This document shows, in pieces, positions 13,248 to 33,580 of a stretch of DNA of 41,793 nucleotides (position 1 is its first letter; each line of letters opens with the position of its first letter). The translations under genes were made by a program, and so were the position numbers. The notes below the pieces were generated by a model. That model worked only from the letters and a program-made list of their open reading frames with translations, was not told where the DNA came from and searched no databases. Origin of the DNA: Candidatus Poribacteria bacterium (lineage in GTDB: Bacteria > Poribacteria > WGA-4E > UBA9662). The stretch spans positions 1 to 41,793 of the forward strand of contig PAQF01000061.1 of assembly GCA_002709695.1 (NCBI GenBank), given 5' to 3'.

Positions 13248-13273
13248 GAAAGCACAGATCGATTTGTGCTTTC
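13248..13273. repeat. Perfect 9-bp inverted repeat upstream of the LamG gene
   Basis: GAAAGCACA at 13248-13256 and its exact reverse complement TGTGCTTTC at 13265-13273 flank an 8-base spacer, GATCGATT. It lies 28 bases before the preferred start codon at 13302, so it could be an operator for a dimeric repressor, or an RNA hairpin in the leader that affects translation or transcription. The symmetry is seen directly; the role is inference. No T-run follows, so it is not a typical intrinsic terminator. Confidence 0.6.
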
Positions 13274-13301
13274 TATTTAGATAATGAAATTAGAGGATTC
13301 G

Positions 13302-14063
13302 ATGTTTTTGGATTTTAAGTTTTTTACATGGTTGAAATATACTGTTTTTTTGCTGATTTTTTCCCTTTTGCTAATTGTTCAGGCAAGCGGAAAACTTAGC
13401 TTGGAAGACAATATTGGTATTTGGCATTTGGACGAAGGCAAAGGCAATGTGGCAAAAGATACATCATCCAATAAACATGAAGGGGAGATCAAAGGAGCCA
13501 AATGGGTCAAGGGGAAATTCGGTCAAGCACTGGAATTCAAAAAGGGAGATACTGTTATTATCCCTTTGGGTAAAGGGGCGGTACGAGATAAAATGAGCGT
13601 CATTATGTGGATCCAGTTTACTGACGTGAGTGCCCAACAAAATTACTTCTCTGTCTGGGATCAAAGCAAAAACCGTCTGGTGCCTTATAAGGATCCAGGA
13701 AATATGCTCCGTTGTTGGAGCAATGAATGGAATGTTGCCAGTGGGGTTTCAGCCAAAAAAGGCCAATGGTATCATATTGCTAATGTCTACGATGGCAAGA
13801 AGGCTAAAATTTACATTGATGGTAAAGAAAAAGCGTCACAAGATGTACCAAAATTCGAGATGAATGATGAGGACCAGACAGCTTGGTTGGCCACAGATCA
13901 AGGCGGTTGGCATTCAGCATGCATCATTGATGAATTTATCTTCTTTAGCCGTGCTGTCACTGCTGATGAGGTTAGTGAGATCTTCAGTAAAGGAATCGAT
14001 GTTGGCACAAAAGTAGATAGAGTTTCAAAACTACCGACCATCTGGGCAGATCTAAAAAAATAA
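13302..14063 (+). CDS. Secreted LamG / concanavalin A-like domain protein
   Basis: The protein has about 253 residues. A hydrophobic leader (FTWLKYTVFLLIFSLLLIVQ) is followed by a single LamG-like domain: IGIWHLDEGKGNVAKDTSSN, GKFGQALEFKKGDTVIIPL, SVIMWIQFTD, WYHIANVYDGKKAKIYIDGK, and CIIDEFIFFSRAVTADEVSE at the end. This is the standard beta-jelly-roll order of the LamG_3-type family and covers nearly the whole mature protein, with a short tail. It probably binds carbohydrate or surface polymers outside the cell. The frame opens at 13284, but AGAGGA lies four bases before the ATG at 13302, which is preferred. Proteins of this type are abundant in Poribacteria (from memory). Confidence 0.88.
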   Translation: MFLDFKFFTWLKYTVFLLIFSLLLIVQASGKLSLEDNIGIWHLDEGKGNVAKDTSSNKHEGEIKGAKWVKGKFGQALEFKKGDTVIIPLGKGAVRDKMSVIMWIQFTDVSAQQNYFSVWDQSKNRLVPYKDPGNMLRCWSNEWNVASGVSAKKGQWYHIANVYDGKKAKIYIDGKEKASQDVPKFEMNDEDQTAWLATDQGGWHSACIIDEFIFFSRAVTADEVSEIFSKGIDVGTKVDRVSKLPTIWADLKK

Positions 14064-14199
14064 TTGCCAAGGCTCATTGGGTAGCTTATTGGTCTGTCAT
14101 AATATTGGTACCAGTTGAGGGCGTGTGTCGGCTCATGATGGATTACAAGATGCTACTTTGAGGGCACTCAGGTGTGGAATAATTACTGACGTGGACATA

Positions 14200-15036
14200 A
14201 TGTCGATTGTACCCGCTAGACGCAAACAATTGCAAGTCGAGGGCTATTGTATCCTGAAGGGTGTAGTTAACGATGATCTCCTCAATCGAACACAGGCCTG
14301 TGTGAATAATGCCATTGCTGCCCAGTTGCCTTTACAACCGAAGAAAAATCAGTCACCTGGCCTAATGCTTGCGGCAGAGCACTATCCAGAACTCTCTGGC
14401 ATAATAGGTAACCCGGTTGTTTGGCAAGCATTAGGCCAAATGGGGCTGAGCGGAAGTGCTTTTTGGAAAGCGGTTGTAATTAGCAAGCCACCAGCCGGTC
14501 CCCGTTTGTATTGGCATCAGGATTGTCTGATGTGGGACGACCCGAGATCCTATAGTCAGATTTCGCCCATGATTTTCTTGATGTATTACATGGAGGATAC
14601 GACTCGTAAAAATGGATGTTTACGGGTATTGCCTGGGACCCACCGAAAACGGCATATACTGCACCAAATGGGCGAAGCACATACCCCTGAGATTAACGAT
14701 ATGGAAAACCCGGATGATCCACGATTCCTGAATTACGCGGGTGAAAAGGATGTACCGATGTTTGCGGGAGATGTTGTCATTGGAGATGCCCGCATGTTCC
14801 ATGCTACGCACGAGAACCGGTCTGATGAACGCCGCACAGTTATTACTGTCTGGTATCATCCCTTGTTTGACGGTCTTCATCCAAGTACACAAAGCTGGAT
14901 TCACAAGCAGTTTAATGAAAGGCATGGACACTGGCCGGAGTCAGCACTGGCGGAAATTTCGGCAGTAATCCCTCGTTATGATGGAGATGTCTCACCGATG
15001 AAGTATAATCGTTTCCCAAATGAACGCTTAACCTAG
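14200..15036 (+). CDS. PhyH family Fe(II)/2-oxoglutarate dioxygenase
   Basis: Numbered from the ATG at 14200, the iron ligands are H106 and D108 in LYWHQDCLMWDD and H201 in MFHATHENRSDERR, whose arginines supply the 2-oxoglutarate contact. The family's central segment is present as NGCLRVLPGTHRKRH. The N-terminus MSIVPARRKQLQVEGYCILK fits the usual 'QL..EGY.iL.g' opening, so 14200 is preferred over the upstream GTG at 14125, which does have a nearby GAGG. Either start leaves the domain complete. It shows only general resemblance to the neighbouring PhyH proteins, so substrates may differ. It follows the LamG gene on the same strand. Confidence 0.88.
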   Translation: MSIVPARRKQLQVEGYCILKGVVNDDLLNRTQACVNNAIAAQLPLQPKKNQSPGLMLAAEHYPELSGIIGNPVVWQALGQMGLSGSAFWKAVVISKPPAGPRLYWHQDCLMWDDPRSYSQISPMIFLMYYMEDTTRKNGCLRVLPGTHRKRHILHQMGEAHTPEINDMENPDDPRFLNYAGEKDVPMFAGDVVIGDARMFHATHENRSDERRTVITVWYHPLFDGLHPSTQSWIHKQFNERHGHWPESALAEISAVIPRYDGDVSPMKYNRFPNERLT

Positions 15037-15162
15037 AGTAGAGGGAGCCATGTGATGATGATGTTGAGGACATTTTTGTTGCTGGATTTGTGGGACTGAT
15101 TAAAACCAGTTCTTTCAGCAATGAACTTTTAGAAGAAGTTAATAGAGATTTTGAGGAGTAAA

Positions 15163-16053
15163 ATGGCTAGTCGAGCGAGGGAAATGCGAATCGTCGAGAC
15201 GTTTGTTGATTGCAATGATGTCCTCGGAGATCAAGTACAGTTAAGATCCCGCGCTGCCGAAAATGGTTATCTGTACTTCCCTCGTTTGCTCCCTGTGGAA
15301 GATGTATTAACAGTGCGCCACGAGATTTTGCAGGTCGCGGACTGCCATGGTCTTCTTAGAGAGGGCATTGATATAGATAAAGGCATTCGCAAAGAGGGTG
15401 TGTATATCGATTTGGAGTACGATAAACCGACCCCGCCTGAACTGAAACGGTTTTACAATGATATACTGAGTTTACACAGTTTCAACGCCTTTCCCCATCA
15501 TGCGATAGTTATGGATTTGCTCGAATTACTCCTTGCAGAATCTACTTTTGTACATCCTCGCCATATCTGCCATGTCCTCTTTCCAGGTCGATTTGACCAT
15601 ACAACAGAGCCACATCAGGATTTTCATCCAGTGCGTGGTACCAGGGATACTTGGACCGTTTGGGTCCCGTTGGGCAACATCGAATCTGACCTCGGTGGAG
15701 TGGCCATCGCCCGCGGCTCCAACCAGCTTGGTTATCTTGACAACGAGTTCGTTACCTCCGGGCAATTGCTGGATGACAAAACCGTGTGGCACTGGAATCC
15801 CTTTAGTTGTGGGGATGTGCTTATGTTTCATAGCTTGACGATCCATCAGGGGCGTGACAATGTGACTGATGATACCATTCGTCTTTCCACCAGTGCCCGT
15901 TATCAAGCTATCAGTGAACCAGTAGATGCAGCCGCGCTGACACCTCACTGGGGATGGGCCGATTGGGAGGAGCTCTACGCCGATTGGGAGCGGGACGATC
16001 CGCTCAAATACTACTGGCGGTCGCTTGATCTCAACACACAGACATACCGATAA
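15163..16053 (+). CDS. PhyH family Fe(II)/2-oxoglutarate dioxygenase
   Basis: This 296-residue enzyme has the triad H151 and D153 in EPHQDFHPVRG and H228 in SLTIHQGRDNVTDDT, followed by IRLSTSARYQ with the expected Arg. The segment VPLGNIESDLGGVAIARGS is the family's pre-distal-His strand pair. The C-terminal part is rich in Trp (PHWGWADWEELYADWERDD), an acidic aromatic tail seen in one PhyH subgroup. The start is fixed by GAGGAG about five bases before the ATG at 15163. The gene begins 127 bases after the preceding PhyH gene and probably belongs to the same unit. Confidence 0.9.
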   Translation: MASRAREMRIVETFVDCNDVLGDQVQLRSRAAENGYLYFPRLLPVEDVLTVRHEILQVADCHGLLREGIDIDKGIRKEGVYIDLEYDKPTPPELKRFYNDILSLHSFNAFPHHAIVMDLLELLLAESTFVHPRHICHVLFPGRFDHTTEPHQDFHPVRGTRDTWTVWVPLGNIESDLGGVAIARGSNQLGYLDNEFVTSGQLLDDKTVWHWNPFSCGDVLMFHSLTIHQGRDNVTDDTIRLSTSARYQAISEPVDAAALTPHWGWADWEELYADWERDDPLKYYWRSLDLNTQTYR

Positions 16054-16463
16054 GAGTATACTGAAAGAGCGTGACTGTATGCGCAAAAGCTTGTTAGCTC
16101 CACACCTTCATGCGTTTTGAAAATGCTCGGATGTAAATCAGAACCAAACAAAAGGGAAAGTTCTATTTTGTACAAATTTAATTTTAATATTTTGGGGTAA
16201 TTCGATCTACCATGGTTGAATTACACCCCCCGACTTTTAGGTGCTAATTTACCAGTTCAAAACGACTGGAACCGCCGGTTACCTCGGTTTTCGGAGGCAG
16301 ATCTCGCATTTAGTCAATACCCTTCGTCAAAGATTTGGACCGTCTTAGAAGGAAAACTATCATTTTCAAAACTAAACATATTCCATAATTGGGGTTTGGC
16401 AATGTTTGTTTTTAGTTATAATTTGGAGAGTATCAGTTAAAACCTAATCAATACAAAATAACT
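16054..16463. other. Intergenic region with no supported gene
   Basis: This 410-base stretch contains a 74-codon frame starting with TTG at 16216 (LNYTPRLLGANLPVQNDW...). It lacks a ribosome binding site and a recognisable domain, though its composition is fairly protein-like. It could be a remnant. No structural RNA element was recognised. Confidence 0.35.
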
Positions 16464-17756
16464 ATGAAAGCCGAAAACTGTTTTTTTGAATTAGTCCCAA
16501 AAGTGGTACCAGCGGATAGGGAAACTATGATCGAAATTCGATCACTTTTCGATCATGTCCATTTTACTTCCGAACGGCAATATGAGGTTACCTACTATCC
16601 AGTAGAAGAAATTTCGCACCAAAGTAGTTGGCCGGAGCAACATAGGAAAAGGCTAAAAGTAGTAGATGGTATCTTGCGGATGTCACAATACTTTGAAGGT
16701 GAACAAGAGCATGTGTTGTCTGTAGAAGAGATTTGGGGGAAAAACCGAAGGTCAGTGGGTGAATTTCGGCTCTACTCAGCTCAGCCTGATCTATTCGGCC
16801 GAAAGCCTTACAAGGGTGATATACATATGCATAGTCATCGGTCCGATGGGAGAGAATCACCTGGATATGTAGCAGGATGTTGTCGACGAATCGGGCTTGA
16901 CTTTATGGCTCTGACTGATCATCGGAAATACAAACCTTCTTTGGAGGCACAGCAAGCCTACGCTGGGATTTCGACAGATCTGCGTATTTACCCCGGTGAA
17001 GAGGTACATCCTCCCAACAATCCGGCCCACATAATTAATTTTGGTGGTAGTTTCAGTGTCAACGACCTGTTTGAAGATAAAGATAGATACCAAGCTGAAG
17101 TCGATCAAATCGATCAGCAACTCGGCCCTCTTCCCGCTGGGGTAAATCGTTATCAGTATGCCTCTTGTTGTTGGTCTTTTGACAAAATCCGACAAGGTGG
17201 AGGGTTAGGTGTTTTTTGCCATCCTTATTGGTTTACTGGGAACCGTTATTCACCATCTGGTGCGTTAACTTCCCATTTGCTGGAGACACAGCCGTTTGAT
17301 GCTTATGAACTACTGAGTGGTTACGATCGCCAAGAGGTCGATTCTAATACTTTGCAGGTGGCACGTTACTACGAGGAACGTGCTAAGGGGAATGAGATGC
17401 CAATTGTTGGTGTGAGTGACGCACACGGTTGCGAAACTGGATCACTATTTGGCTGGTATTATACGATCGTTTTTTCGACTACCTTGGAACACTCAAACCT
17501 GATAACCAGTATTAAGGACCTTTTTTCAGTTGCAGTTGAGTCTATCCCCGGTGAATCTGCCCGGGTTTATGGTCCCTTTCGTCTTGTTAAGTACGCGCTT
17601 TTCCTCTTGCGTGAAATACTACCGCAACAGGATACGCTCTGTCTAGAAGAGGGGCGTCTGATGCTGGCACATGTGGCTGGAGATTCCTCTGCGGCAAAAC
17701 TTCTCGGGAATTTATCCGGACGGACCGCAGAACGATTGGCAAACCTCTGGGCATAA
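16464..17756 (+). CDS. CehA/McbA-type PHP-domain metal-dependent hydrolase
   Basis: The protein has 430 residues. An N-terminal ~110-residue beta-rich domain precedes a PHP domain whose metal ligands are visible: H121, H123 and D128 in GDIHMHSHRSDG, D152-H153 in FMALTDHRKYK, the glutamates of YPGEEVHPP, the His of GVFCHPYWFTG, and DAH in IVGVSDAHG. This set matches PHP phosphoesterases/hydrolases, and the leading beta-sandwich is typical of CehA-like proteins. It probably hydrolyses a phosphoester or related bond; the substrate is unknown. No signal peptide is seen. The ribosome binding site is weak. It sits between PhyH and sulfatase genes on the same strand. Confidence 0.85.
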   Translation: MKAENCFFELVPKVVPADRETMIEIRSLFDHVHFTSERQYEVTYYPVEEISHQSSWPEQHRKRLKVVDGILRMSQYFEGEQEHVLSVEEIWGKNRRSVGEFRLYSAQPDLFGRKPYKGDIHMHSHRSDGRESPGYVAGCCRRIGLDFMALTDHRKYKPSLEAQQAYAGISTDLRIYPGEEVHPPNNPAHIINFGGSFSVNDLFEDKDRYQAEVDQIDQQLGPLPAGVNRYQYASCCWSFDKIRQGGGLGVFCHPYWFTGNRYSPSGALTSHLLETQPFDAYELLSGYDRQEVDSNTLQVARYYEERAKGNEMPIVGVSDAHGCETGSLFGWYYTIVFSTTLEHSNLITSIKDLFSVAVESIPGESARVYGPFRLVKYALFLLREILPQQDTLCLEEGRLMLAHVAGDSSAAKLLGNLSGRTAERLANLWA

Positions 17757-17857
17757 TCGGAATAAAATGTGTCAATAAATGACTGAGATTGCTTTCTTGA
17801 AACTGTGGTTGAATAGTTGTAGATCTCAAGTGGTCAAATTTACCTTGGTGAGTAGCT

Positions 17858-19237
17858 ATGAAAACTGAACAGGTGATGAAACTGAAATTAGAGAAATTGT
17901 TGGGTCATCGGCCACAAAATATCGTGGTTATCCAAGTTGATGATCTAGCTTGGCATCAACTTGGATGCCAAAATCAGAGTGGATTCTACGAAACTCCTCA
18001 CTTGGATGCTCTAGCCCAAAAAGGGTGGCGCTTTTCCCAAGCTTACAGCGCAGCACCTATTTGCTCTGCTTCCCGAGCCGGCCTGTTAACTGGACAGTCA
18101 CCGGCTAGGTTGGGATTGGAGTTTGTTACCAAATCCAGTCAGGCAACATTTCCTACTCACACCAAGTTACTTCAACCCCCTTATACCCAGGAACTGCCAT
18201 CCTCAATTCCGACTTTGGGTGATCGCCTCACTCAAGCTGGCTATATCACCGGATTTGTAGGCAAATGGCATTTGACTCAAGATGGTGTTTCCTACTTGGC
18301 TTATGGAGACACAAATGGTCCAGAGCAGAGAGGGTTTTCTTGGACTCGGGGCCAATTTGGAGCCCATCCATATGCCTGCACCGACCACACTTTGAAAGAC
18401 TACGAATCAAGGGTGTTTCCAACTGATAGTAGTTCCCAAGCCGCAGTTCAATTTATCCGTGATAATTGCCAGCAGCCTTTTTATCTTCATTTTGCCAGTT
18501 ATTTTCCACATGTGCCTTTACATACTCCTTGTCGGTGGTTACTAGAAAAATATCGGCATAAGAATCCTTCCCTAACCAAGCCGCAAATCACCTATGCCGC
18601 CATGGTGGAAAGCATGGATCATTATATTGGTCAGATTCTCCAGGAATTGGAGCAGCAAAGTTTAGTCTCAGAAACACTGGTCATTTTCACGAGTGATCAT
18701 GGTGGTGATCCAAGGCATGATATAAACGGTCCTTACCGAGGTTGCAAATGGACACTATATGAAGGGGGGATTAGAGTACCCTTCATTATCAGGTGGCCAC
18801 AGGTATTAAAGCCCAACCAAGTCTGTGACCAACCTGTTGGGGGCATTGATTTGATGCCAACCCTTTGTGATTTAGCTTTTATTGATCAACCGGAGATTTG
18901 CGATGGAGCAACACTAGCTCCATTATTGTTGATGGCAGAGGATCAAATTGAGCGAACGGTTCCTCTGTTTTGGCATTTTCCTTACTACCATCCAAAGATA
19001 GGTTATCAGGGTACAACTCCCTGTGCTTCTATTCGCAGTCAGGATTGGAAATTGATACATTTTTTTGAAGATCAACGCTCTGAACTGTATCAATTGGGAG
19101 CAGATGTAGCCGAAAGGAACGATCTAGCTCGCCAAGAATACAAGACCAGTAACCATTTGGAATGCCAGCTTTTCTCAGAGTTAAGACAGAGGAATGCCAG
19201 ATGGCCTAAGCAGAATCCAGACTATTTAGATTTTTAG
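17858..19237 (+). CDS. Type I sulfatase (formylglycine-dependent, CSASR variant)
   Basis: This 459-residue arylsulfatase-like enzyme removes sulfate esters. The metal-binding start IVVIQVDDLAWHQLGC includes D28-D29. The active-site box CSASRAGLLTG has Cys69, the residue converted to formylglycine, in a C-x-A-x-R form in place of the commoner C-x-P-x-R. The lower metal site is VIFTSDHGGDPRHD, and GFVGKWHL gives the conserved Lys and His. No signal peptide is seen, which suggests cytoplasmic action or an alternative start. GGTGAG precedes the ATG. The order PHP-sulfatase after PhyH genes suggests processing of sulfated organic substrates. Modification would need an FGE, and only a fragment of one is seen in this window. 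Confidence 0.9.
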   Translation: MKTEQVMKLKLEKLLGHRPQNIVVIQVDDLAWHQLGCQNQSGFYETPHLDALAQKGWRFSQAYSAAPICSASRAGLLTGQSPARLGLEFVTKSSQATFPTHTKLLQPPYTQELPSSIPTLGDRLTQAGYITGFVGKWHLTQDGVSYLAYGDTNGPEQRGFSWTRGQFGAHPYACTDHTLKDYESRVFPTDSSSQAAVQFIRDNCQQPFYLHFASYFPHVPLHTPCRWLLEKYRHKNPSLTKPQITYAAMVESMDHYIGQILQELEQQSLVSETLVIFTSDHGGDPRHDINGPYRGCKWTLYEGGIRVPFIIRWPQVLKPNQVCDQPVGGIDLMPTLCDLAFIDQPEICDGATLAPLLLMAEDQIERTVPLFWHFPYYHPKIGYQGTTPCASIRSQDWKLIHFFEDQRSELYQLGADVAERNDLARQEYKTSNHLECQLFSELRQRNARWPKQNPDYLDF

Positions 19238-19453: not shown

Positions 19454-21148
19454 TTACTTTGTGAGTTGACTAACCCCTTCTTTGATATAAACGATTGTAT
19501 CTAGGGCAATATTATTAAGTCTATCAACTGTTCCACTGGGCCATGAAACTTCTAGCAGGTCTATCTGCTTGAGATCTTTTCCAAGACCAAAATGGACACG
19601 CATGTCATTTTGAGACATATAGCTAGAACCACTGCGCACCTCTGAAATCAATGTTTGATTTTTAGTGATTATTCTTACTTTAGCACCAATTCCATCACGA
19701 TTGCTTGCCGATGTCGGTTGAGTCCCGATCGTCTTTACTATCAACCAATGATTATCTGTTTCACTGTCATTTCGCAGTAAAGTTGGTCGATCGTGAGCAT
19801 TACTAATTAGAATATCCATATCTCCATCATTGTCATAATCTCCAAAAGCCACACCACGACTAGCTTTCATTTCTTTGGGGATGGACTCAGTTTTCACAAA
19901 CCCACCTCTTCTATCATTTATTAGTAGATGATTGGGTTGAAGGTAGGAAGAGCCTGTGTCATATTGCTCTATTACGTCTTGAGTATGCCCATTTGCCACA
20001 AACAAATCTCGAAAGCCATCATTATTGAGATCAACGAGACCAGTCCCCCAGCTTACGTATGGCAATGTAAACCCCAATCCTATTGAAAAAGAAATATCGT
20101 TGAAGAACACATATTCCTCATTTCGATAGAATACATTAACCTGTTTTTGAAAATTGGTCATAATTAAGTCAAAATCTCCGTCGTTGTCATAATCTGCCAA
20201 ATCAAGTCCCATACATCCTTGTAAATCTCCATTCATATCACTGGCAACTCCTGTTATCCATGCTACGTTGGAAAATCGGCCATTATTGTCGTTCTGATAC
20301 AAAAAGTTCTCCGTTGCATCATTTGCCACAAAAAGGTCAAGGTCTCCATCGTTGTCATAATCTGACCATATAGGACTCATACCTCTTCCAATAGGATTGT
20401 AAAGTCCCGATTCTTTAGTGACATCGGTGAACGTGCCATTACCATTATTTTGGTATAAAATATCTGAGACTCCTGCGAATTGTTCAGGGGGACAATAAAC
20501 TTGAATGTTACTGCCATTAATTCCTTTATGGATACATGGTTGGTGGTTTTCAACTCTGAAGTTGCAATAGTTGGTTACATATAAATCTAAATCTCCATCT
20601 CTGTCGTAATCTCCAAATGAGGAACCGGCACTCCATTGGGATCCTTCTACTTGAGCACTTTGAGTTACATTAGTAAAGGTACCATTACCATTATTTTTAT
20701 ACAGTACATTTGTGCCAAAATTTGTAATGTAAAGATCTATGAAGCCATTGTTATCGTAATCACCTGCGGAAATCCCAGTACCATAGCCCGTGTCTCCAAC
20801 ACCAGCGGATGTGGTTATGTCGACAAATTTACCCTCTCCGGTATTTCGGTAAAGTCTGTTTCCTGAAGCTTTTTCTGTGTTTTCTTTCCTAACAGAAGTT
20901 GCATTAACCAAGTAAATATCCAAATTCCCATCGTTGTCATAATCTATAAAAGCACAACCTGAGCCAATTGTTTCAATAAAATATTTTTTTCCTTCTCTGC
21001 CATCTTGGTGTTGAAAACTTATGTTTGCTTCCTCTGTAACGTCGGTAAACTGAATATGTTCGGTTGGTTTGGCTTGGTTAAATTTCTGTCCGGACAAAAG
21101 GAGAAGTATGAAAACGAAAACATGTTTCAAAAGTTGGTCAGGGATCAA
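19454..21148 (-). CDS. CRTAC1-like FG-GAP/VCBS repeat protein with ASPIC/UnbV C-terminal domain
   Basis: This 564-residue exported protein has a hydrophobic leader (LLKHVFVFILLLLSG) followed by repeated calcium-binding blades of the form FIDYDNDGNLDIYLVN, GDYDNNGFIDLYITN, GDYDRDGDLDLYVTN and DYDNDGDMDILISN. Each is paired with 'LY.N.GNGTFTDVT'. Together they form an integrin-alpha-like beta-propeller. The C-terminal ASPIC/UnbV domain is seen in IGAKVRIITKNQTLISEVRS and VHFGLGKDLKQIDLLEVSWP. The start is a TTG with AGGA about six bases before; no ATG is available near the leader. It is probably a surface or periplasmic protein for adhesion or scaffolding. It resembles the neighbouring gene throughout and is its likely duplicate. 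Confidence 0.9.
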   Translation of the reverse strand: MIPDQLLKHVFVFILLLLSGQKFNQAKPTEHIQFTDVTEEANISFQHQDGREGKKYFIETIGSGCAFIDYDNDGNLDIYLVNATSVRKENTEKASGNRLYRNTGEGKFVDITTSAGVGDTGYGTGISAGDYDNNGFIDLYITNFGTNVLYKNNGNGTFTNVTQSAQVEGSQWSAGSSFGDYDRDGDLDLYVTNYCNFRVENHQPCIHKGINGSNIQVYCPPEQFAGVSDILYQNNGNGTFTDVTKESGLYNPIGRGMSPIWSDYDNDGDLDLFVANDATENFLYQNDNNGRFSNVAWITGVASDMNGDLQGCMGLDLADYDNDGDFDLIMTNFQKQVNVFYRNEEYVFFNDISFSIGLGFTLPYVSWGTGLVDLNNDGFRDLFVANGHTQDVIEQYDTGSSYLQPNHLLINDRRGGFVKTESIPKEMKASRGVAFGDYDNDGDMDILISNAHDRPTLLRNDSETDNHWLIVKTIGTQPTSASNRDGIGAKVRIITKNQTLISEVRSGSSYMSQNDMRVHFGLGKDLKQIDLLEVSWPSGTVDRLNNIALDTIVYIKEGVSQLTK

Positions 21149-21524
21149 AGAATTTCCTGTCGGGTTTATTTAGTTGGGTTAAGCGCTTAGTCCAAGGTGA
21201 CTATTTTGACAAAATCACTTTTTCAAGCCCATTTTTCTTTGGATCGTTTTGATTACTCATCGAAATGTGGTTTGAGATGATTCTAATGTTTGATCGAGGC
21301 CTTTTTTGTTTGGAGGTAAAAACTTAATCTTGGGAGAAAGTGAAAGGCGGTTCAATTTATAAATGTTTTTGAGCCTAATGAAAACGGTAGTCGTTTTAGA
21401 GCTTGCGGATCTCGTTTTGGTTCAATCATTCGGTTCCGTTCAGCATAATGCTGCGAGAAATGACTTTTCTGTTTCCTTTTTCTATCGTTTGATTTTGAGG
21501 ATTTATTAAATGCAATTATATAAA
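21149..21524. other. Gap between the two CRTAC1-like genes, no gene seen
   Basis: This 376-base AT-rich stretch lies between two same-strand paralogues. It has stops in all frames and no recognisable domain. It may hold a promoter for the downstream CRTAC1-like gene, since the distance is too long for tight operon coupling. Confidence 0.35.
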
Positions 21525-23183
21525 TTACAAGGTTTTGCTTTTACCTGATTCGAAAATCTGTATGGTTTTGTTTACAGACACTTGCTTTATTTCATAGGTG
21601 AACCCATTTGTAAACGTAGCCGAGATTTTCCCAATTATATTATAATCACCTAAACCAAAATGGAGGATAAAATCATTTTGACACAGATAACTCGTTCCAC
21701 TTTTGACTTCAGCAACTTGTACCAAATTTTTACAGATGACTTCGACTCTGGTTCCTACTCCTGACCGATTACTGGTTTCCCCAATAATTTGAACTTTTAT
21801 CCAGTTCTTTTGATTCCCTCCATCATTCCGTAGAAGCTGTGCTTTTCTGTTGCTATTGGTGATCAGTATGTCTATGTCACCATCATTGTCATAGTCTCCG
21901 AAAGCGGCGCCTCGACTCGATGCCTTTTGATGTGAATCATTGCCAAAAGAAATAGCAACTTCCCTGAAAACTTCATTCCCTAAATTTTCAAACAACTGAT
22001 TAGGTTGTGGGTAAGTTTTTTCAGGATAAATTTGGTTGATATTATCACAAACATGTCCGTTAGCAACAAAAAGATCTTTATCGCCATCATTATCATAATC
22101 GAAAAAGCTTGTTCCCCACCCAAGAGTAGACAAAGTCTTTTCTCCTATACCAGAGATATAAGTGATATCAGAAAAAAAACCGTTTCCTTCATTTTTGTAA
22201 AGAATTGCTACTTCATCCTGAAAATTAGTAACGATCAAATCTAGAAACCCATCATTGTTGAAGTCACCAAAATCGGTTCCCATTCCACTTCCCATTTCTC
22301 CGTTTTCACCTAACGCAACACCTGCGTAAAAAGCAACATTTTTAAACTGTCCATTTCCATCATTTTGATAGAGGTAGTTATCGTTAGTATCATTTGCCAC
22401 GTAAATATCCAAGTCTTTATCGTTGTCATAGTCACCCCAAACGATCCCTAGACCACGACCTCGTGTATTGTAAACACCAGCGGCTTGAGTAACATCGGTA
22501 AAAATTCCATTCCCATCATTTTGGTAGAGTAAATCGGATTCTCCTTGAAAATCCTGAGGTTGACAATATGTCTCGATGTTGTTGAAACGACATGTTTTAT
22601 GTTTTTCGAAATCAAATTGGACATAGTTTGCAACGTACAGATCTAAATCTCCGTCATTGTCGTAATCGGCGAATGAGCATCCAGTTCCCCAGCGTGAATC
22701 ACCAACACATGCTTGATCTGTTACATCTATAAAAGTACCATCACCATTATTTTTATACAGGATATTATTTCCATAGTTTGTAACATATAGGTCAACGTAA
22801 CCATCATTGTTGTAATCTCCTGCACAGCACCCAACACCATAACCTGGGTCTCCTACTCCAGCTTTCTGAGTAACATCGGTAAATGTCCCTTTACCGTTAT
22901 TTTCATACAATTGGTTTATCGGTGTTTGAACAGAATTGTGTCCGGGTAGATCAGCACTATTGACAAGATAGATATCAAGATCATTATCGTTATCGTAGTC
23001 AAAGAAGGCTGCACCTGATCCTAGTTCTTCCAAGAAATAAAAACGTCCGCTTCGGCCATCTTGGTGTTTAAAAACTAAACCTGTTTCATTTGTTACATCG
23101 GTGAATGTGACAGCATCTAATGGAAATGAAAAATTAATGTATAAACTAAAGGCCAGAAAATAACAAGTCTCATTTATTCTCAT
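21525..23183 (-). CDS. CRTAC1-like FG-GAP/VCBS repeat protein with ASPIC/UnbV C-terminal domain (paralogue)
   Basis: From the preferred ATG at 23183 the protein has about 552 residues: a leader (CYFLAFSLYINFSFPLDA), then the same layout as its neighbour: FTDVTNETGLVFKHQDGRSG, repeated DYDNDxDLDIY blades and GNGTFTDVT linkers, and an ASPIC/UnbV end (GVGTRVEVICKNLVQVAEVK, LHFGLGDYNIIGKISATF). The start is placed by overlap: the ATG lies within the last codons of the TPR gene and its stop overlaps this frame by 14 bases, which suggests translational coupling. The longer frame at 23219 would overlap more. It is probably calcium-binding and located outside the cytoplasm. Confidence 0.9.
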   Translation of the reverse strand: MRINETCYFLAFSLYINFSFPLDAVTFTDVTNETGLVFKHQDGRSGRFYFLEELGSGAAFFDYDNDNDLDIYLVNSADLPGHNSVQTPINQLYENNGKGTFTDVTQKAGVGDPGYGVGCCAGDYNNDGYVDLYVTNYGNNILYKNNGDGTFIDVTDQACVGDSRWGTGCSFADYDNDGDLDLYVANYVQFDFEKHKTCRFNNIETYCQPQDFQGESDLLYQNDGNGIFTDVTQAAGVYNTRGRGLGIVWGDYDNDKDLDIYVANDTNDNYLYQNDGNGQFKNVAFYAGVALGENGEMGSGMGTDFGDFNNDGFLDLIVTNFQDEVAILYKNEGNGFFSDITYISGIGEKTLSTLGWGTSFFDYDNDGDKDLFVANGHVCDNINQIYPEKTYPQPNQLFENLGNEVFREVAISFGNDSHQKASSRGAAFGDYDNDGDIDILITNSNRKAQLLRNDGGNQKNWIKVQIIGETSNRSGVGTRVEVICKNLVQVAEVKSGTSYLCQNDFILHFGLGDYNIIGKISATFTNGFTYEIKQVSVNKTIQIFESGKSKTL

Positions 23184-24453
23184 CTTGGATTGCTTCTTTA
23201 ATTCGTTTGCGATTATCAATGTATTCTGACTGATAGGGTTGGATTTCCAAGGCTTTTTTAATTGCTTTTAGAGCGTTGGTATAGTTTTGTAATTTATACA
23301 TGGTAAAGGCCAATGTGTTCCAGTAGGAAGCAATCGGTTCCGAAGGCTTCGCGTGCGTTACCGCATGTTTGGCAAGTTCAAATGCCTGCTTAAAATTCTG
23401 ATCTATTTGCAGGTAATGTAAAGCTAGTGTATGGCAGGACGGAGAGAAATTGGGATCAATCTGCAATGATTTTTTGAGATATTTAATCCCATCTTCATAG
23501 TGTTCAAGGCGAAGGCAAGCTGTCCCTAAACCATAGAATGGATACGAATTATTAGCTTCTATCGCAATAACTCGTTCAAATTCTTCCTTGGCTGTTTCAA
23601 AGTCACTTGATTGTAAGGCAATTGATCCGAGTACTTGGTGTCCTTGAGCAGAATTGGGAGTTAGCTTAACGAATGATTGATAGTAACTAATTGCTTTTTC
23701 CATGTTTTGTTGCTGAAGCGCGATTGCGCCAAGTCGAGCATAAGCAGGAGCAAAGTCAGAAGCCATATCAATTGCCCGCTGATATTGTTTAATTGCTTCT
23801 AGTACATTATGGCTTTTTAGTGCTGATTCTGCTAATTCATACTGCGATTCTGCTTTCATAAATTGATATTTTTTAAGGTGTTTATCTCCTCGATTTTGGT
23901 CTCCAATACGATAGTAAACGGTTGCGGCTCGATAGTAAGCACTTGTATTGTTTGGATCCTTCTGAATAGCTTGGAGATATTCAGAAATTGCTTTTCGAAA
24001 CTTGGCCTGTTGTTCGTGAATTAATCCTAATTGATAGTATGGTAGAGATTGACTTGGGTCCAGTTCAATTGCGGTTTTGTATTCGATCTCAGCGTTATTG
24101 AACAGCCTTTTACGTGCGAAGACAACACCTAAATTGTAGTGGGCAGCTAAGGAGTGAGGGTTAAGTTCAATGGCTCGTTGGTAGTGCCTTATCGCTTGGT
24201 CAAGCTCTCCTCTTTTGGAGTAGTTAGTCCCAAGTTCAACATTCGCTTCAACAGACCTCGGGTTTTCACTGAGTGTATGCAGGAGATATTCAATTGCTTT
24301 TAAGTAATGGCCTTGTTTTTTTGCGTCAATTGCTTCTTGGATATTAGTGCCTTCCACAATACTGCCAAACGATACAAGCAGAAAGTAAATTACAACACTG
24401 ATATACTTAGCTCTCTTTTCTGGAAAAAGGTCTTTATCCTTGGTAACGCTCAT
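23170..24453 (-). CDS. Tetratricopeptide repeat (TPR) protein, exported or membrane-anchored
   Basis: This 427-residue protein has an N-terminal hydrophobic segment (YISVVIYFLLVSFGSIVEG) and then about ten TPR units from residue ~38 onward, for example AIRHYQRAIELNPHSLAAHY, AEIEYKTAIELDPSQSLPYY, AISEYLQAIQKDPNNTSAYY and GIKYLKKSLQIDPNFSPSCH. TPRs mediate protein-protein contacts, so it may be a scaffold for the adjacent CRTAC1-like proteins; TPR and ASPIC/UnbV proteins are known to co-occur. Its start overlaps the end of the sulfatase gene by 20 bases, and its end overlaps the next gene by 14 bases, so co-translation is likely. Confidence 0.9.
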   Translation of the reverse strand: MSVTKDKDLFPEKRAKYISVVIYFLLVSFGSIVEGTNIQEAIDAKKQGHYLKAIEYLLHTLSENPRSVEANVELGTNYSKRGELDQAIRHYQRAIELNPHSLAAHYNLGVVFARKRLFNNAEIEYKTAIELDPSQSLPYYQLGLIHEQQAKFRKAISEYLQAIQKDPNNTSAYYRAATVYYRIGDQNRGDKHLKKYQFMKAESQYELAESALKSHNVLEAIKQYQRAIDMASDFAPAYARLGAIALQQQNMEKAISYYQSFVKLTPNSAQGHQVLGSIALQSSDFETAKEEFERVIAIEANNSYPFYGLGTACLRLEHYEDGIKYLKKSLQIDPNFSPSCHTLALHYLQIDQNFKQAFELAKHAVTHAKPSEPIASYWNTLAFTMYKLQNYTNALKAIKKALEIQPYQSEYIDNRKRIKEAIQDENK

Positions 24454-25897
24454 TTTTATATGGTGAAACTAATGGTCCAGCTGGAGGTGGAGAAATTAGT
24501 TCTCCGTCTTTAACCCAGTTGCAATTTCGATCTGCCAGTTCATTGATCAGATAGCTTTTCCATTTACTGACTTCGGCTTGATAATTGGGGTTGCCTATGA
24601 GATTATTACACTCACCTGGATCAGTGTCTAAATTGAAAAACTGCATGTCATCAATACGTGGTAACCAGATCAGCTTGCGCTTCCCATTGGTTACATATTG
24701 CATCTCCTGTTCTTGAGAATAGCAAGTGGAATGCTCTCCGTGAATGTATTTACGCCAGTTTCCATTCGATTCTCGGCTCAACAAGGGTAGGATACTTTTG
24801 CCATCGACTGTTTTAGGGATTTCAAGTCTTGCTATGTCTAAAACGGTTGGCATAATATCACGTAACTCGACTACCTGATCTGCAACTTTACATTCAGATT
24901 GAGAGGCATTTTGGCTAGGGGTTACAATAAATGGAATACGGGCACTCCCCTCATAGGCGTACGTTTTTCGCCATAAATGATGATCACCCAGCATCTCACC
25001 ATGATCGGAGGTAAAGACGAACCAAGTATTAGCAAATGTATCAGGTTGATGTCGTCTTAACCAGTTCATTAACCGGCCGATTTGCGTATCAATGAAAGAA
25101 ATTGATCCGTAATAACCGGATCGAGCGCGATGGATCTGTTGCTTTGATTTTTTTCCTCGCCATGCGTTAGGATTCACTGCATCTTGTGGACAATCATGTC
25201 GATCAGCCCAATCAGCGACTGAAGGCTCTGGCAATTTACTGTGATAGTACATATTAAAGTAGTGTTCTGGTGGGACAAAAGGGGAATGGGGTCGTGCAAA
25301 GGATATATTTAGAAAGAATGGGCGAGATCTATCCCTTTGAGAGATGAAATGTATAGACCTATTCATTGTCCAAGCGGTTGGATGGAGATATTCTTCCGTA
25401 TGCCAAGGACGAGAAATCCATGAATTCCAGTCAACTCCGTGATCATCTGGAGTGAGATCACTTTTTTTTTCGTTATCAAACCAAGTTCGATACTCATCTT
25501 TGAGTCCATTGGAAAGCATTCTACCCGATTCATCGAGTTCATGTGTTTCAAATCCCATCTTTGTACGTTGAGGTGTAAAGTGACCTTTGCCTACAAGATG
25601 TGTCTGATAACCAGCTAAAGCGAGCTCACCTGACATTGTATGTGGGAAGTCGTTTGGTATAGGACCTTGTCCTGCACCCATACCTAGGATTCCGGTATGC
25701 CACTGTTTCATACCAGTCATAATTGTTGCACGCGATGGAAGACAGGATGGGCAAGCAGTATAAGCATGGCGAAATCGTGTCCCTTGTGCTGCTAAAAAAT
25801 CCAGATTTGGGGTTTCTATATACGAATTCCCATCTGCCCCCAAGCAATCTCCACGCATCTGATCTGTCATGATTAAGATAATGTTCGGTGTATTCAT
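24434..25897 (-). CDS. Type I sulfatase (formylglycine-dependent, CLPSR motif)
   Basis: From the ATG at 25897 this enzyme has 487 residues. The first metal site is IILIMTDQMRGDCLG. The active-site box is SCLPSRATIMTG, with Cys52 as the formylglycine precursor in the standard C-x-P-x-R form. VGKGHFTP gives the conserved Lys/His, and VFTSDHGEMLGDHHLWRK gives the lower metal site and a conserved Lys. It resembles choline-sulfatase/arylsulfatase-like proteins; substrate unknown. A longer frame begins at 25948 inside the PhyH gene; 25897, 16 bases after the PhyH stop, keeps the normal family N-terminus. There is no signal peptide. It sits between PhyH and TPR genes in one apparent operon. Confidence 0.92.
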   Translation of the reverse strand: MNTPNIILIMTDQMRGDCLGADGNSYIETPNLDFLAAQGTRFRHAYTACPSCLPSRATIMTGMKQWHTGILGMGAGQGPIPNDFPHTMSGELALAGYQTHLVGKGHFTPQRTKMGFETHELDESGRMLSNGLKDEYRTWFDNEKKSDLTPDDHGVDWNSWISRPWHTEEYLHPTAWTMNRSIHFISQRDRSRPFFLNISFARPHSPFVPPEHYFNMYYHSKLPEPSVADWADRHDCPQDAVNPNAWRGKKSKQQIHRARSGYYGSISFIDTQIGRLMNWLRRHQPDTFANTWFVFTSDHGEMLGDHHLWRKTYAYEGSARIPFIVTPSQNASQSECKVADQVVELRDIMPTVLDIARLEIPKTVDGKSILPLLSRESNGNWRKYIHGEHSTCYSQEQEMQYVTNGKRKLIWLPRIDDMQFFNLDTDPGECNNLIGNPNYQAEVSKWKSYLINELADRNCNWVKDGELISPPPAGPLVSPYKNERYQG

Positions 25898-25913
25898 AAT
25901 GCGGCAATCTTTC

Positions 25914-26741
25914 CTAGTTAACTTGCGTTGCTGCGCATGGTGTGCCAAATTTCGGAACTGCGTAAGGTAAATGAGTGCTGCCTCGGGCTAATATCTGATT
26001 ACTGTTACGACATTCTTCTAGTGGAGCTCCCCAATGTGTCCAAGAACGTGCGTTGGCATAATGCCCGACGAAGGCTCGACGAAAACGAGTTTTTGATGTA
26101 TTCGAATGTGATCTATGAATAACATGACCACCAAAAAATGCTACATCACCTGATTTCATAACTGCAGGGACTTCGTTGTCCGAATACTTGGCTGCGATTT
26201 TGCCAAGGTCATTAAGATTAACATCATCATGACTAATGTTTTGAGCGTCATAGCATATCGGTTCATGTTGTGTTCCTTTGACAAACCAGACGCAACCATT
26301 TTCTTCGTCAGCATCATCAAGAGCGATCCAAGCACCGCAGAGTGTATCAGGACGTGTTGGGATATAGTAAGAATCCTGATGGTAACCTTGTCCTACTTGC
26401 TCTGGGGCTTTAAGAAAAAGCATTGTTTGCATGGCCATCACATCTGGGCCAATTAGCCTTTCCAAAACATCCAAAATACGGGTGTGAAGCAAATATCGTT
26501 CGTGAATTTCTAGTTCAAGATGGAGTTGATGTATACGAACATATCGTTGTTCGATTTCTTCAATTGTTGCATTGGGAGATGGAGGGTCGATTCGTCCTGG
26601 TACAGTAACTTCCCCTTGCATAATGTCAACTGTATGATCGACAAGTTCTTGAACATCCCTTTGATTAATTAATTGAGGGATTATTAGGAATCCGTCTTCA
26701 TTAAAAGCTTTCTTTTCTTCGACGGAAAGGACGTATGCCAT
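25914..26741 (-). CDS. PhyH family Fe(II)/2-oxoglutarate dioxygenase, first gene of the operon
   Basis: The protein has 275 residues. It opens VLSVEEKKAFNEDGFLIIPQ. The iron triad is H121 and D123 in GYHQDSYYIPTRP and H209 in GGHVIHRSHSNTS, with arginines at about 219-222 (TRFRRAFVGHY). The intervening strand IALDDADEENGCVWFVKGTQ is diagnostic of the family. This subgroup (HQD.YY, 'ENG..W..PGSH', 'RRA....Y') resembles ectoine-hydroxylase-like PhyH enzymes, but the substrate is not predictable. AAGGAG lies seven bases before the ATG. The sulfatase start follows its stop by 16 bases, so dioxygenase and sulfatase are probably co-expressed. Confidence 0.92.
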   Translation of the reverse strand: MAYVLSVEEKKAFNEDGFLIIPQLINQRDVQELVDHTVDIMQGEVTVPGRIDPPSPNATIEEIEQRYVRIHQLHLELEIHERYLLHTRILDVLERLIGPDVMAMQTMLFLKAPEQVGQGYHQDSYYIPTRPDTLCGAWIALDDADEENGCVWFVKGTQHEPICYDAQNISHDDVNLNDLGKIAAKYSDNEVPAVMKSGDVAFFGGHVIHRSHSNTSKTRFRRAFVGHYANARSWTHWGAPLEECRNSNQILARGSTHLPYAVPKFGTPCAATQVN

Positions 26742-27284: not shown

Positions 27285-28175
27285 TTGGCATTTAATAGAT
27301 TGCATCGTTTAGACCTAAGGATTGCTTTGTTGGCTCTGACTGCGTTTACGTGCGTGTTGTGCATATACTTTATCTTTTCAAAAAATCTAGTAGCTAAAAA
27401 GAACAACCAATTTCCCTTGATATATCCGGCCAAACTTCCTTATAAACGGATTGGAAACATTTGTCAAAATCGAATTAGAGAACCTTCTGGTATTACCTAC
27501 CATCCTAACCGGAAAAGTCTATTTGTTATTGGTGACGAAGGTCATCTCTATGAAATAACAACGGATGGTTATTTAATTCGCTCTAAACGTCTAAAACGAA
27601 GGGATTTCGAGGGAATCACAGTCGATCCATTTAGCGGGCGGCTGTATACCGTTGTTGAGGGTGATGATGCAATTCTTGAAATAGATCAAAAAACTCTGCG
27701 GGTTATTCGAAAGTTTGAAATAAACCGAAAATTTAATGGTCAGGAATTACTGAAGAAGAAAGGGACTGGGTTGGAAGCAATAGTCTTTGTGCCTGATATA
27801 TCGCATCCGGAAAGAGGCACATTTTGGGTGGGCAATCAATCTTTCGATCTTCGATCAGGTAAAGAACCTTCAATAATTTGTCAAATCAATATTCCACTTC
27901 TTTCATCCAGGAAAAAGAAGACTAAGGGGAAGATCATCGACTTTTTTCTTATGAATGCAATTGACATTTCTGGACTTACCTATGACATAAGGCGTAATCA
28001 ACTGGTTGTTATCAACGATAAGCCCAATTTGCTACAGGAAGTAGGGTATGATGGAAAAGTTCTTCATCAATATCAGTTACCGGGAAAAGGTCAGGAAGGT
28101 ATTACGCTGGATACTATGGGATATATTTATATTGCACAAGAAGACGGAAAGGTTATCAAATTCAAAACCCGTTAA
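27285..28175 (+). CDS. SdiA-regulated-like beta-propeller protein, membrane-anchored
   Basis: The protein has 296 residues. An N-terminal hydrophobic stretch (IALLALTAFTCVLCIYFIF) acts as an anchor or signal. A single propeller follows with repeated strands: EPSGITYHPNRKSLFVIGDE, GHLYEITTDGYLI, DFEGITVDPFSGRLYTVVEG, DISGLTYDIRRNQLVVINDK and QEGITLDTMGYIYIAQEDGK. This order matches the SdiA-regulated (PF06977-like) family, which is related to phytase-like propellers; its function is unknown. The start is a TTG with only a weak upstream GAAG, as no ATG precedes the hydrophobic segment. Its stop overlaps by a few bases the end of a converging broken gene. Confidence 0.8.
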   Translation: MAFNRLHRLDLRIALLALTAFTCVLCIYFIFSKNLVAKKNNQFPLIYPAKLPYKRIGNICQNRIREPSGITYHPNRKSLFVIGDEGHLYEITTDGYLIRSKRLKRRDFEGITVDPFSGRLYTVVEGDDAILEIDQKTLRVIRKFEINRKFNGQELLKKKGTGLEAIVFVPDISHPERGTFWVGNQSFDLRSGKEPSIICQINIPLLSSRKKKTKGKIIDFFLMNAIDISGLTYDIRRNQLVVINDKPNLLQEVGYDGKVLHQYQLPGKGQEGITLDTMGYIYIAQEDGKVIKFKTR

Positions 28176-28501
28176 AAAAGAGCATATGAGGTTTTGAAAA
28201 GAAAACTGAAGCTGGAATCAATTGGTTTTTCACAAAAGATGGCTTTATCAGCCTTCACTGATGCCTCAATCAAATCCGCGTGCGTGTCCGTGGCAGATGC
28301 AATGACAACAGCTTTAATATCAGGATTAGACAATGGCTCGTCGGTGCTGGTTACGGCTAGCGTACCATAGCGTCTGGCCAGTGTTTCAGCACGACTCTTG
28401 TCGCTGTCCACGATACAGGCAAGTTCAGCACGATCAGAAACTGCTATGTTTGCCGCGTGGAGAGAACCCATTCGACCGGCCCCGATAACGCAAAATTTCA
28501 T
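28172..28501 (-). pseudogene. Truncated Gfo/Idh/MocA oxidoreductase (N-terminal Rossmann half only)
   Basis: The first ~98 residues are a good Rossmann domain: MKFCVIGAGRMGSLHAANI, ACIVDSDKSRAETLARRYG, DIKAVVIASATDTHADLIEA and AIFCEKPID. This resembles inositol 2-dehydrogenase-like members. Right after the EKP motif the sequence becomes unrelated (SSFSFLFKTSYALF) and stops. The catalytic C-terminal domain of ~230 residues is missing, so it cannot be an active enzyme. The start and ribosome binding site (AAGGA, seven bases) are intact, so a short product may still be made. The break point lies where the converging propeller gene ends, suggesting a deletion or rearrangement there. Confidence 0.85.
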
Positions 28502-29336: not shown

Positions 29337-32300
29337 TCACTGCTGAATTGGGTCAAGACGCCAAACAATCAAGTTCCCCCAGCCGATCTCTGTCTCAAGA
29401 CCAGCTTCTAGTTGTTTCCGGGTCATCTCCTTGGGTTCGGCGCCTTCCGGACCAAGACGGGTAACCCTGTAACGCCTAGCGGGCAAATGGAAGGCAGACA
29501 ACCGTGTCTTGACTGGTGTGGGATCGGATTCCTCATCTGTCTTCGTCCACCACAGGAAATGTTGTTGCTTCTCAGGAATTTCTCGATGAAGCACAAGATA
29601 TCGCGTTTCGCCCAAGCGCAGATAGTTGGTGACATACTCGCCGGTGTTGGGATGGACTCGCACCCAGCGTCTGGAACCCGTCCAAGTGAGCAGGTCATCG
29701 ATGAAGAGAGGTTCTGCCTGCGTCATGTAGTATCCGACATTCAGCGGACGAACGAATAATAGGATCTCCCCATTACCGTAGGAGAAGCGGACAACGGCTG
29801 GCTGTCCGTTTTCGAACCGGGCCTCAATCTTTGCTCCCGCGGGGATATCTACTTGCTTCGGAGGGCAACCCACTAAGTGTAGAACCTTCTCCCGGATAAA
29901 CAGGTTCAGCTCACTTTTTGCTTCAATTTCATCCTGTTGGGAATATCGCGTTTTGGCCGTGTCAACCCAACCGAAGGAAGAAAGCAGACCTGTGGGTTCC
30001 TCGCCTTCACCAGTAAAGCGACTTGCTGCCGCAGGGTCAAAGAAAACAAGACGACCGCCCCTTCTTACAAAAGCTTTCACTTTCTGAATACCTTCAGAAT
30101 TGATTTCAGGTCTCGTAAGGATCAAGCACTTGCGACCATCCCATGCTTCCTGCGGGTAATAATCACGTAGCATGTGATTTGGAACTTGGGCTCGGTAACG
30201 GAACAGATAATAGAGAGACTCATCTGAATAGCTGGCAAAGTCTATCTTTGGAATCTCCGTGGCTGACATTTCTGCCAGCACAGCACTCCAGATGCTCTGC
30301 CTTTCCAGTCCGGATGATATTGTCGGAGTTTGATGGCCCGGATGCATTATGTTGTAGAACATGTTCATATGCATACTTGCACCTCCGAAAAGTAGCATGC
30401 CTGCAACTATCTGATCCGCGTCCCACTTGCCTCGCTTCGGCCCAGGGACAATAGCTTGGTATTCAGCCTGCCAGATGCTCTTATTCAGAAAAGCACGATC
30501 AGCATAAGAAATACATTTTACAGGGGTATCCCCATGACCGGTACTCGCATATCCACCGCTTGTGAAAACCTCTCTCAGATAGGAATCCTCGTCAATCCCC
30601 CAGTAAGGATGATAGAAGGAAGTCGGTCTGGTATCGCCTTCTGCCCGAAGTGTTCCGCTAAAGAAGTCTACATAGAATTCGCGAACCACTTCATTCTTGA
30701 AGGCCATCACGTCACGATAATATAGAGTACTTTTCCATGCCTCCCTGTCTAATTCTGGCATAGGAATCATAACATCATCCCAAGAGGTATATTCAGAACC
30801 ATAGCGCTCATTGACCTGTTTCAAGGATAACACGAGCTTCTCCTGCAGAAAGCGACGAAACGCATCTTGGGATGAAACCGAATAACCTGCGAACCCCCCA
30901 TCGTGATCCACAAAGAATATATCTGTCTGGTAGTTCCATGCCACTACATCCATGTCGTTCTTAATATGATCATAGACTCCTACGAGAATCCGGCGAATCA
31001 GATCCCGATAGATGGGGTTACTATGGTCTGGAAAGTACTGACAATTCCACAGTTCTTTGCGCCAGTGTGTAAGACCTTGGTAATCCTCCTGACACTCCCA
31101 TGGTAACCACTCCGGATCCCAGCGATGGTTTGGCGGGGCAGGTGCGATTACAGTGACCAAACCGGATTGGCGGGCGTAACTCAGCCGCTCTTCCAGGTTG
31201 CGGGTGCGCACAAATCCAGGCAGAGGTGCGATTTCCCACGGATTAAGCAGCATCTTTACACCGGTGAGGCCAATCTCCTTCCAAATCGTACATGACTTGT
31301 CATAAACTTCATGAAAAGGCCCCCATTCTGCGTCTGTCCATGTCCCTTTATCACCAGTGGTCATCAGCCTTTTCCCACTACCAACAAGGTCACTCAGTAT
31401 TGGCTGGCACTTAATCTTTTTGCTCGTTGCTCGTTGAACATCACGGACGGCGAATTTCAGCTTCTGACGATCAAGCACCTGTTTGCCGTTAAGCAATTCA
31501 GCAATAAGAAAATATGCATCTCCCTTGTTTTTCACTTTCCATGACCATCGCAGGTCACAAAAACCATCAGCTGCATCAACAGGGAAAACCTGTTCACTGA
31601 GAACCTCGTCGGGCAAAGCATCAATACGGCGGTTCTGGCGGATTACCATTCTCAACTTAGTTCCATCAGGAAGTTTCCTTTCCTCGTGAGGAGTAATTCT
31701 GACAAGAAGCGCAACCTCATCCTGCGCTGGATAAATGTGATTCTCCTGCCCCGTGTCTAACCGAAGGACCCCCACGTCTTTGGCATCGTTCAGGCGAGGC
31801 AGGCTCTTCCAATCCACAGATGCCGGTGCTCCCAATTCTCCTCGGATAACGGCCACCCGGACTCTCTTTTCTCCAGCTAGGGCGCCGTCTGCACTCCATG
31901 CCCGCAGTTCTATCCAGTATGTGCCTGTCCGGTTCAGGTCCAGTTCGACTCGCTCCTGATAAGCCTGTTCTAGGTTAGGCCGTATCCATGCCAGATTCTT
32001 AGAACCAGCCATAAAAACAGGCCCTTGGTACACGTCTCGAACCGTCCACCCGAGGTAATATTCCTTAGACTCATTGATGACCAGATCAACTGGTATCTGG
32101 GTCTTACCCGACCCGTATGGGTTTAGTCCAAGCAGGTTATTCCAGCCTTGAATGTCTTCGTAACCTAGGTACATCTGCCAGCGAGTGTGGTTTAGATAAT
32201 CAATGGTATCGGCCTCAGCATCACGCAGGTAACATTGACCATCGGTCTTTGCGGCAAGAATCACCTTGAGTCCTGTAATAGCCTTTGGTCCCATGGGTCC

Positions 32301-32831: not shown

Positions 32832-33580
32832 GATTTTGATCCTTCTCCTGAGGGCAAGATTGACTGAATCCCCTTCCAATAACGGGCATTAGCTCAATTG
32901 TCCTTCGAACCCCAAGTTGTAGAGATATAGGAGCACATCATAAGACGAAATTTGGAAGCTGTCAAGTAATGATCAACCAGGTTAAGCTAGACCGGTGAGA
33001 GATAAACTAAGAAGAGACTAACCTTGGTCTGGACTCCTGTCAACCACTGACACGACAAGGGCTGATTGTTCAAGTCGATGGGGTTGTTTTTGTATCAGTC
33101 ATTCGGAGTGTTGTATCAGAAAACAAGAGTCTAGTTGCGAGAAGGAAAAAGGTTACCAGTTAGGGATACTGATGCCCATCTGATTATCCTGTACAGATCT
33201 TTACGCTGTCTTGGTACCTGTTCTTTTGCGCTGGATTCGCTTGGTCCAAAGTTATGCCAAAAGAGGCCTTTTTGTATGGATGGGTCTTTATGCGATGACT
33301 CAACCCCGAGAAACAATGATCAGATTCTTTTGAGCTACGACAATCAAGCAACAATGCGTGCAAAATCTGCTCATTATCATACTCAGGCATATCAACGCAA
33401 AATTCACGGACCGAACTGTTAGTAACACGATTAACCCAAATTATGCCTATAACCCGCAGGGACAGATCAGCATCCAAAAACCCCGAAAAATCTGGTAACT
33501 CCCTACTCTGATCTTTGAATCATTATATTCATCTTCATATTCGCCTTGTACATAAGTTTTTAACTTAAATACAACTCTGC
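32832..33580. other. Intergenic region with possible traces of decayed genes
   Basis: About 750 bases upstream of the large GH-like gene hold no supported gene. A plus-strand stretch at about 33012-33163 (GLIVQVDGVVFVSVIRSVVS, then ARRKKVTS) looks like coding DNA and faintly resembles the membrane-fusion-protein (HlyD/RND adaptor) C-terminal region. It has no start. Overlapping 60-97 codon frames on both strands near 33131-33477 are uninformative. Confidence 0.35.

Follow-up and report, generated by a model that had tools for sequence, protein, structure and literature searches.

The window, that is, the whole 41,793-nucleotide stretch of DNA that was analyzed, comes from a Candidatus Poribacteria genome of 5.2 Mb in 87 contigs. 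On its minus strand, it carries a gene set that begins with a PhyH-family Fe(II)/2-oxoglutarate oxygenase (25914-26741; 275 aa; PF05721, E = 1.9e-33). This first gene is followed by those for a Cys-type S1 sulfatase (24434-25897, ATG at 25897; 487 aa; PF00884, E = 3e-49), a TPR superhelix protein with matches to many TPR families (23170-24453; 427 aa), a CRTAC1-type protein that we call CRTAC1-a (21525-23183, ATG at 23183; 552 aa; PF13517, E = 5.6e-57; PF07593, E = 4.9e-13), and its paralogue CRTAC1-b (19454-21148; 564 aa; PF13517, E = 2.4e-52). A gap of 16 nt separates PhyH from the sulfatase, the sulfatase and TPR genes overlap by 20 nt, and the TPR and CRTAC1-a genes overlap by 14 nt; CRTAC1-b lies downstream on the same strand at a spacing of 376 nt. 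The five genes and the close junctions described in the initial annotation were thus confirmed by the open reading frames and domain searches.

Neither a SusC/SusD pair nor a glycan-degrading enzyme, the features by which we would recognize a polysaccharide utilization locus, occurs among the genes from PhyH to CRTAC1-b (19454-26741), and the stretch from PhyH to CRTAC1-a is devoid of transporter and glycoside hydrolase genes. A GH42-like gene is present in the window (29337-32879); it does not adjoin the set. The scans for promoter-like sites (33 vs. 24.0, SD 4.8, in shuffled sequences) and terminator-like sites (6 vs. 5.5, SD 2.5) were uninformative. Elsewhere in the window, a 109-residue GFO/IDH/MocA fragment comprising the N-terminal domain only (28172-28501) is probably a remnant gene, and the plus strand just past CRTAC1-b (11931-19237) encodes three further PhyH-family proteins, a CehA/McbA-like metallohydrolase, and a second sulfatase.

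Do these genes form one unit? Among the genomes searched, only one other, G001, belongs to the genus; its contigs match records of Ca. Poribacteria UWMA-0119, the nearest named relative. The order PhyH-sulfatase-TPR-CRTAC1-a recurs there. One G001 contig carries an additional choline-sulfatase-like gene upstream of PhyH, then PhyH, the sulfatase, and the N-terminal part of the TPR gene; two near-identical contigs carry the C-terminal part of the TPR gene and CRTAC1. Because these contigs are joined only by exact 55-nt overlaps, linkage through the TPR gene is deduced from the assembly. The 20-nt overlap between the sulfatase and TPR genes is identical in G001, and the proteins share 88% (PhyH), 87% (sulfatase), 71–73% (TPR), and 87% (CRTAC1-a) identity. 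The corresponding dN/dS values were about 0.07, about 0.07, 0.11–0.14, and about 0.05; they are rough, since dS was near saturation. All four genes are under purifying selection. Downstream of CRTAC1-a, G001 has another TPR gene instead of CRTAC1-b; a G001 contig continuing after CRTAC1 was not found.

The exactly conserved 20-nt overlap, together with an enrichment of TPR-CRTAC1 adjacency over background (described below), places the arrangement beyond chance. It is very likely that the four genes from PhyH to CRTAC1-a constitute one operon, and the best explanation of the data is that this operon is translationally coupled and specific to a single Ca. Poribacteria genus; CRTAC1-b probably lies outside it. 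The functional unit proposed at the outset thus survives as a likely four-gene transcription unit, whereas its five-gene form is unsupported. Likewise, conservation of the gene order, on which that proposal had been made to depend, holds within the genus and fails outside it.

We surveyed the neighborhoods of 109 CRTAC1 genes in eight Poribacteria genomes, leaving out the window's own operon and using the other open reading frames of the same loci as background. TPR genes accounted for 32 of 174 operonic neighbors of CRTAC1, compared to 13 of 684 in the background (p = 4e-14), and for 22 of the 61 neighbors at distances of 30 nt or less (p = 2e-17). These p-values are optimistic, as orthologous loci of related genomes were counted repeatedly; the TPR contrast was already plain within the source genome alone. 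In the same eight genomes, neither sulfatases (1/174 vs. 6/684) nor PhyH genes (7/174 vs. 48/684) were enriched beside CRTAC1, which rules out both as general CRTAC1 partners in Poribacteria. Of the families grouped together by the initial annotation, TPR is statistically tied to CRTAC1 in this phylum, and sulfatase and PhyH are not.

The pairing extends to other phyla: in Acidobacteria, Abditibacteriales, and a gammaproteobacterium, 6 of 19 close CRTAC1 neighbors encoded TPR proteins (background, 0/161). A mirror-tree comparison of paired TPR and CRTAC1 proteins yielded r = 0.82 (p = 2e-4, 18 pairs), and the class of partner tends to stay constant within CRTAC1 clades. The two are also fused at four loci (L042, L075, L080, and L125). 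The fusion in the source genome (L042:5378-8665, contig C17) is a protein of 1095 residues in which N-terminal TPR repeats precede FG-GAP and UnbV domains. The TPR-CRTAC1 pair is the conserved core of the set, and we consider it reasonably likely that the two proteins act together. Our search of the open-access literature yielded neither a report of a TPR-CRTAC1 operon nor a described bacterial role for CRTAC1-type genes.

Genes with FGE domains were the second enriched class of CRTAC1 partner (14/174 vs. 8/684). Those with a readable GGS/GGA motif do not have the two catalytic cysteines behind it, at the positions that we presume these residues to occupy; a role as sulfatase activators is thus unlikely. 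FGE-sulfatase-domain genes are overrepresented directly upstream of CRTAC1, in a clade-specific manner (L039:6735-9274 on contig C47 of the source genome; L149, L162, L180, L194, L196, L207, and L208). At L031:5802-8255 (contig C5, source genome), an 817-residue FGE-TPR fusion overlaps CRTAC1 by 4 nt, and PhyH and another CRTAC1 gene come next, an order that recurs in G001 (L221). At L034:7208-10074 and, in G001, L213, CRTAC1 overlaps by 4 nt a gene for a HEAT-repeat protein, also an alpha-solenoid, as if it replaced TPR. The source genome also harbors decayed copies, namely a shortened TPR-CRTAC1 pair (L061:6237-7612, contig C38) and a TPR gene interrupted by stop codons (L022, contig C36). 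DUF6785 genes adjoin several CRTAC1 genes (L029, L031, L033, and L038) without enrichment over background; another lies in the window at 34810-36795.

Both CRTAC1 paralogues show the domain order of the family, FG-GAP repeats followed by UnbV_ASPIC; CRTAC1-a has seven FG-GAP_3 stretches. Each has seven D-x-[DN]-x-D loops, which by motif are of the calcium type. The predicted model of CRTAC1-a (pLDDT 90) is a seven-bladed propeller whose best match in the PDB, murine CRTAC1 (9etn), aligned over the full length with a TM score of 0.73 and 20% identity. The murine protein has the same domain order; CRTAC1-a differs in being bacterial, in its signal-peptide-like N-terminus, and in having an overlapping TPR partner gene. 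The next matches, at 16–18% identity, were fungal propeller lectins for which either a structure with GlcNAc or a description of GlcNAc binding exists; because this is a fold-level match, the lectin likeness applies to the entire CRTAC1 family. The AlphaFold2 model of the TPR protein (pLDDT 92.5) is a regular superhelix of about 11 helix pairs with an N-terminal helix at residues 11–30. Its matches to the TPRs of O-GlcNAc transferase are generic and were given no weight. Judged by hydropathy only, the TPR protein, CRTAC1-a, and CRTAC1-b have an N-terminal hydrophobic stretch, which is weakest in CRTAC1-a. The TPR and CRTAC1 proteins are thus predicted to be exported, and this segment could serve the TPR protein as either a signal or a membrane anchor.

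The sulfatase has an intact C52-LPSR signature and the PF00884 fold, which identify it as an S1 (formylglycine-type) enzyme. Its best curated model was that of an arylsulfatase (NF010322 / PRK13759, above the cut-off). The nearest solved relative was BT1918 of subfamily S1_46 (7OZ8; 377 bits, 40% identity over 458 aligned residues), and the next solved matches scored 303 and 152 bits. BT1918 cleaves the 3-O-sulfate of GlcNAc and requires the N-acetyl group (PMC10154620, PMC10154612). Its N-acetyl pocket is made up of four residues (two Tyr, one Arg, and one Asn); several Tyr, Arg, and Asn residues are common to the two proteins along the alignment. Both carry the Cys signature; an equivalent N-acetyl pocket in the present sulfatase, and its placement in S1_46, are putative. 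BT1918 has been described as periplasmic (PMC10154612), whereas hydropathy revealed no N-terminal hydrophobic stretch in our sulfatase, nor in PhyH. The latter retains the HxD...H triad of PF05721 (H121-x-D123 and a distal His region), and the intact HxD rules out a halogenase. A function directed at a sulfated compound, as initially suggested, is plausible given the intact Cys signature and the GlcNAc-3-O-sulfatase as nearest solved relative. A machine that captures and desulfates within a single compartment finds no support: an export signal is visible in the TPR and CRTAC1 proteins and in neither the sulfatase nor PhyH.

Where did the parts come from? Genomes of family f4 keep a related TPR-CRTAC1 pair without sulfatase or PhyH. 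Close orthologues of the sulfatase (76–81% identity) occur in eight other genomes, and in none of the six neighborhoods read did the PhyH orthologue, the matching TPR gene, or any CRTAC1 gene adjoin them. Beyond the genus, PhyH has its nearest orthologue in genome G021 (81% identity), beside an amidohydrolase gene. The full set was not found in the other relatives searched with the TPR protein (40 genomes) or with the sulfatase or PhyH protein (59 genomes). Read most simply, the four genes came together from existing parts within or near the base of the genus, with loss elsewhere as the alternative; it is a local, genus-limited combination around the widespread, old TPR-CRTAC1 core. The source genome contains about 55 sulfatase, more than 150 PhyH, about 40 FGE-domain, about 38 DUF6785, and about 20 CRTAC1-type genes. 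With so many sulfatase and PhyH genes, adjacency of either alone means little. That PhyH, TPR, FG-GAP, and UnbV_ASPIC genes are numerous in Poribacteria, a group with sponge-associated and free-living members (PMC8546597), has been published before (PMC3909097).

On our best reading, the operon would encode an exported solenoid-propeller binding module to which a pair of cytoplasmic enzymes has been recruited, presumably to act on a sulfated amino-sugar compound. In the working that we propose, the CRTAC1 propeller would bind a sulfated glycan or glycoconjugate containing amino sugars at the cell surface or within the periplasm, held there in a putative complex by the exported or membrane-anchored TPR solenoid. 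Small fragments would enter the cell by a transporter. The S1_46-like sulfatase, placed in the cytoplasm with PhyH because neither has a visible export signal, would remove the sulfate (our best guess is the 3-O-sulfate of N-acetylglucosamine), and PhyH may hydroxylate some part of the compound. As the best explanation of the operon, we give this entire scheme a probability of roughly 35%; that all four proteins act on one sulfated compound is equally tentative. In its favor, the sulfatase is nearest to the GlcNAc-3-O-sulfatase BT1918, whereas the sulfatase of another CRTAC1 operon in the source genome (L035, contig C17) and the one upstream of PhyH in G001 best match choline sulfatases; the lectin likeness of CRTAC1-a also counts for it, within the limits given above. 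The scheme has to contend with the absence of sulfatase and PhyH enrichment near CRTAC1 in the phylum and with their orthologues standing apart from the pair elsewhere. It also divides the enzymes and the exported proteins between compartments, with the transporter and glycoside hydrolase missing from the unit, and the set is found in two genomes only, one copy being split over contigs. A link of the sulfatase and PhyH to the pair is plausible, though thinly supported. Sponge glyconectin carries a GlcNAc3S-(1-3)-Fuc unit (PMC8271808), which suggested a candidate substrate; it is nevertheless improbable that a phylum-crossing glycan-capture pair is wired here to an intracellular GlcNAc-3-O-sulfatase for uptake and desulfation of such GlcNAc3S-type epitopes.

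The same abundance, lack of enrichment, solo orthologues, and persistence of the pair in family f4 would also be expected if TPR-CRTAC1 worked alone, for instance in adhesion or as part of the structure of the envelope, with the sulfatase and PhyH upstream by chance and co-transcribed without a shared function. We hold this to be a serious contender, not far short of an even chance. It leaves unexplained why order and overlap were kept in both genomes despite near-saturated synonymous change. Moreover, sulfatase-CRTAC1 adjacency recurs: the source genome has a second sulfatase-CRTAC1-TPR operon (L035, contig C17), and Neolewinella and Lewinella have sulfatase-CRTAC1-sulfatase genes with 4-nt overlaps. 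These are single cases, not an enrichment, and they speak against pure accident. In a further, rather unlikely scenario, the sulfatase would scavenge sulfate as a plain aryl- or alkyl-sulfatase, PhyH would oxidize the freed alcohol or phenol, and TPR-CRTAC1 would serve non-glycan export or assembly. The arylsulfatase model, the missing export signal, and the missing glycoside hydrolase would suit such a function, but the nearest solved structure, that of a carbohydrate sulfatase, outscored the next matches by a clear margin. A single system of all five genes is very improbable. The genes do share a strand, four have short junctions, and CRTAC1-b is the sister of the CRTAC1 in the L035 operon; against this stand the 376-nt gap, the different downstream gene in G001, and the failure to find the set in the relatives searched. 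On the gap and the lack of conservation we rejected the five-gene unit; the data lend no support to a general pathway of five genes.

Other systems also place CRTAC1 among functional partners. The Bacteroidota SusC-SusD-CRTAC1 loci (SusC/SusD assigned from size and order) have it beside uptake-type genes, and the Lewinella set beside desulfating genes; unlike the present operon, both are without TPR and PhyH, and most of their CRTAC1 proteins are about 1100 residues long. A hydrazine-synthase-like operon has a CRTAC1 gene between subunit genes, also among enzyme genes; the enzymes differ, and the passage that describes it mentions no TPR or sulfatase gene (PMC12758564).

Within this set, it is the TPR-CRTAC1 pair that merits further attention, and CRTAC1-b is probably not a member. 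Poribacteria genomes hold many CRTAC1-type genes (about 8 to 20 or more each), and a robust operon partner that recurs in several phyla and is sometimes fused to CRTAC1 offers a concrete handle on the role of these proteins in bacteria. Should the link to the sulfatase prove functional, this operon may be what allows some Poribacteria to exploit a rare sulfated sugar.
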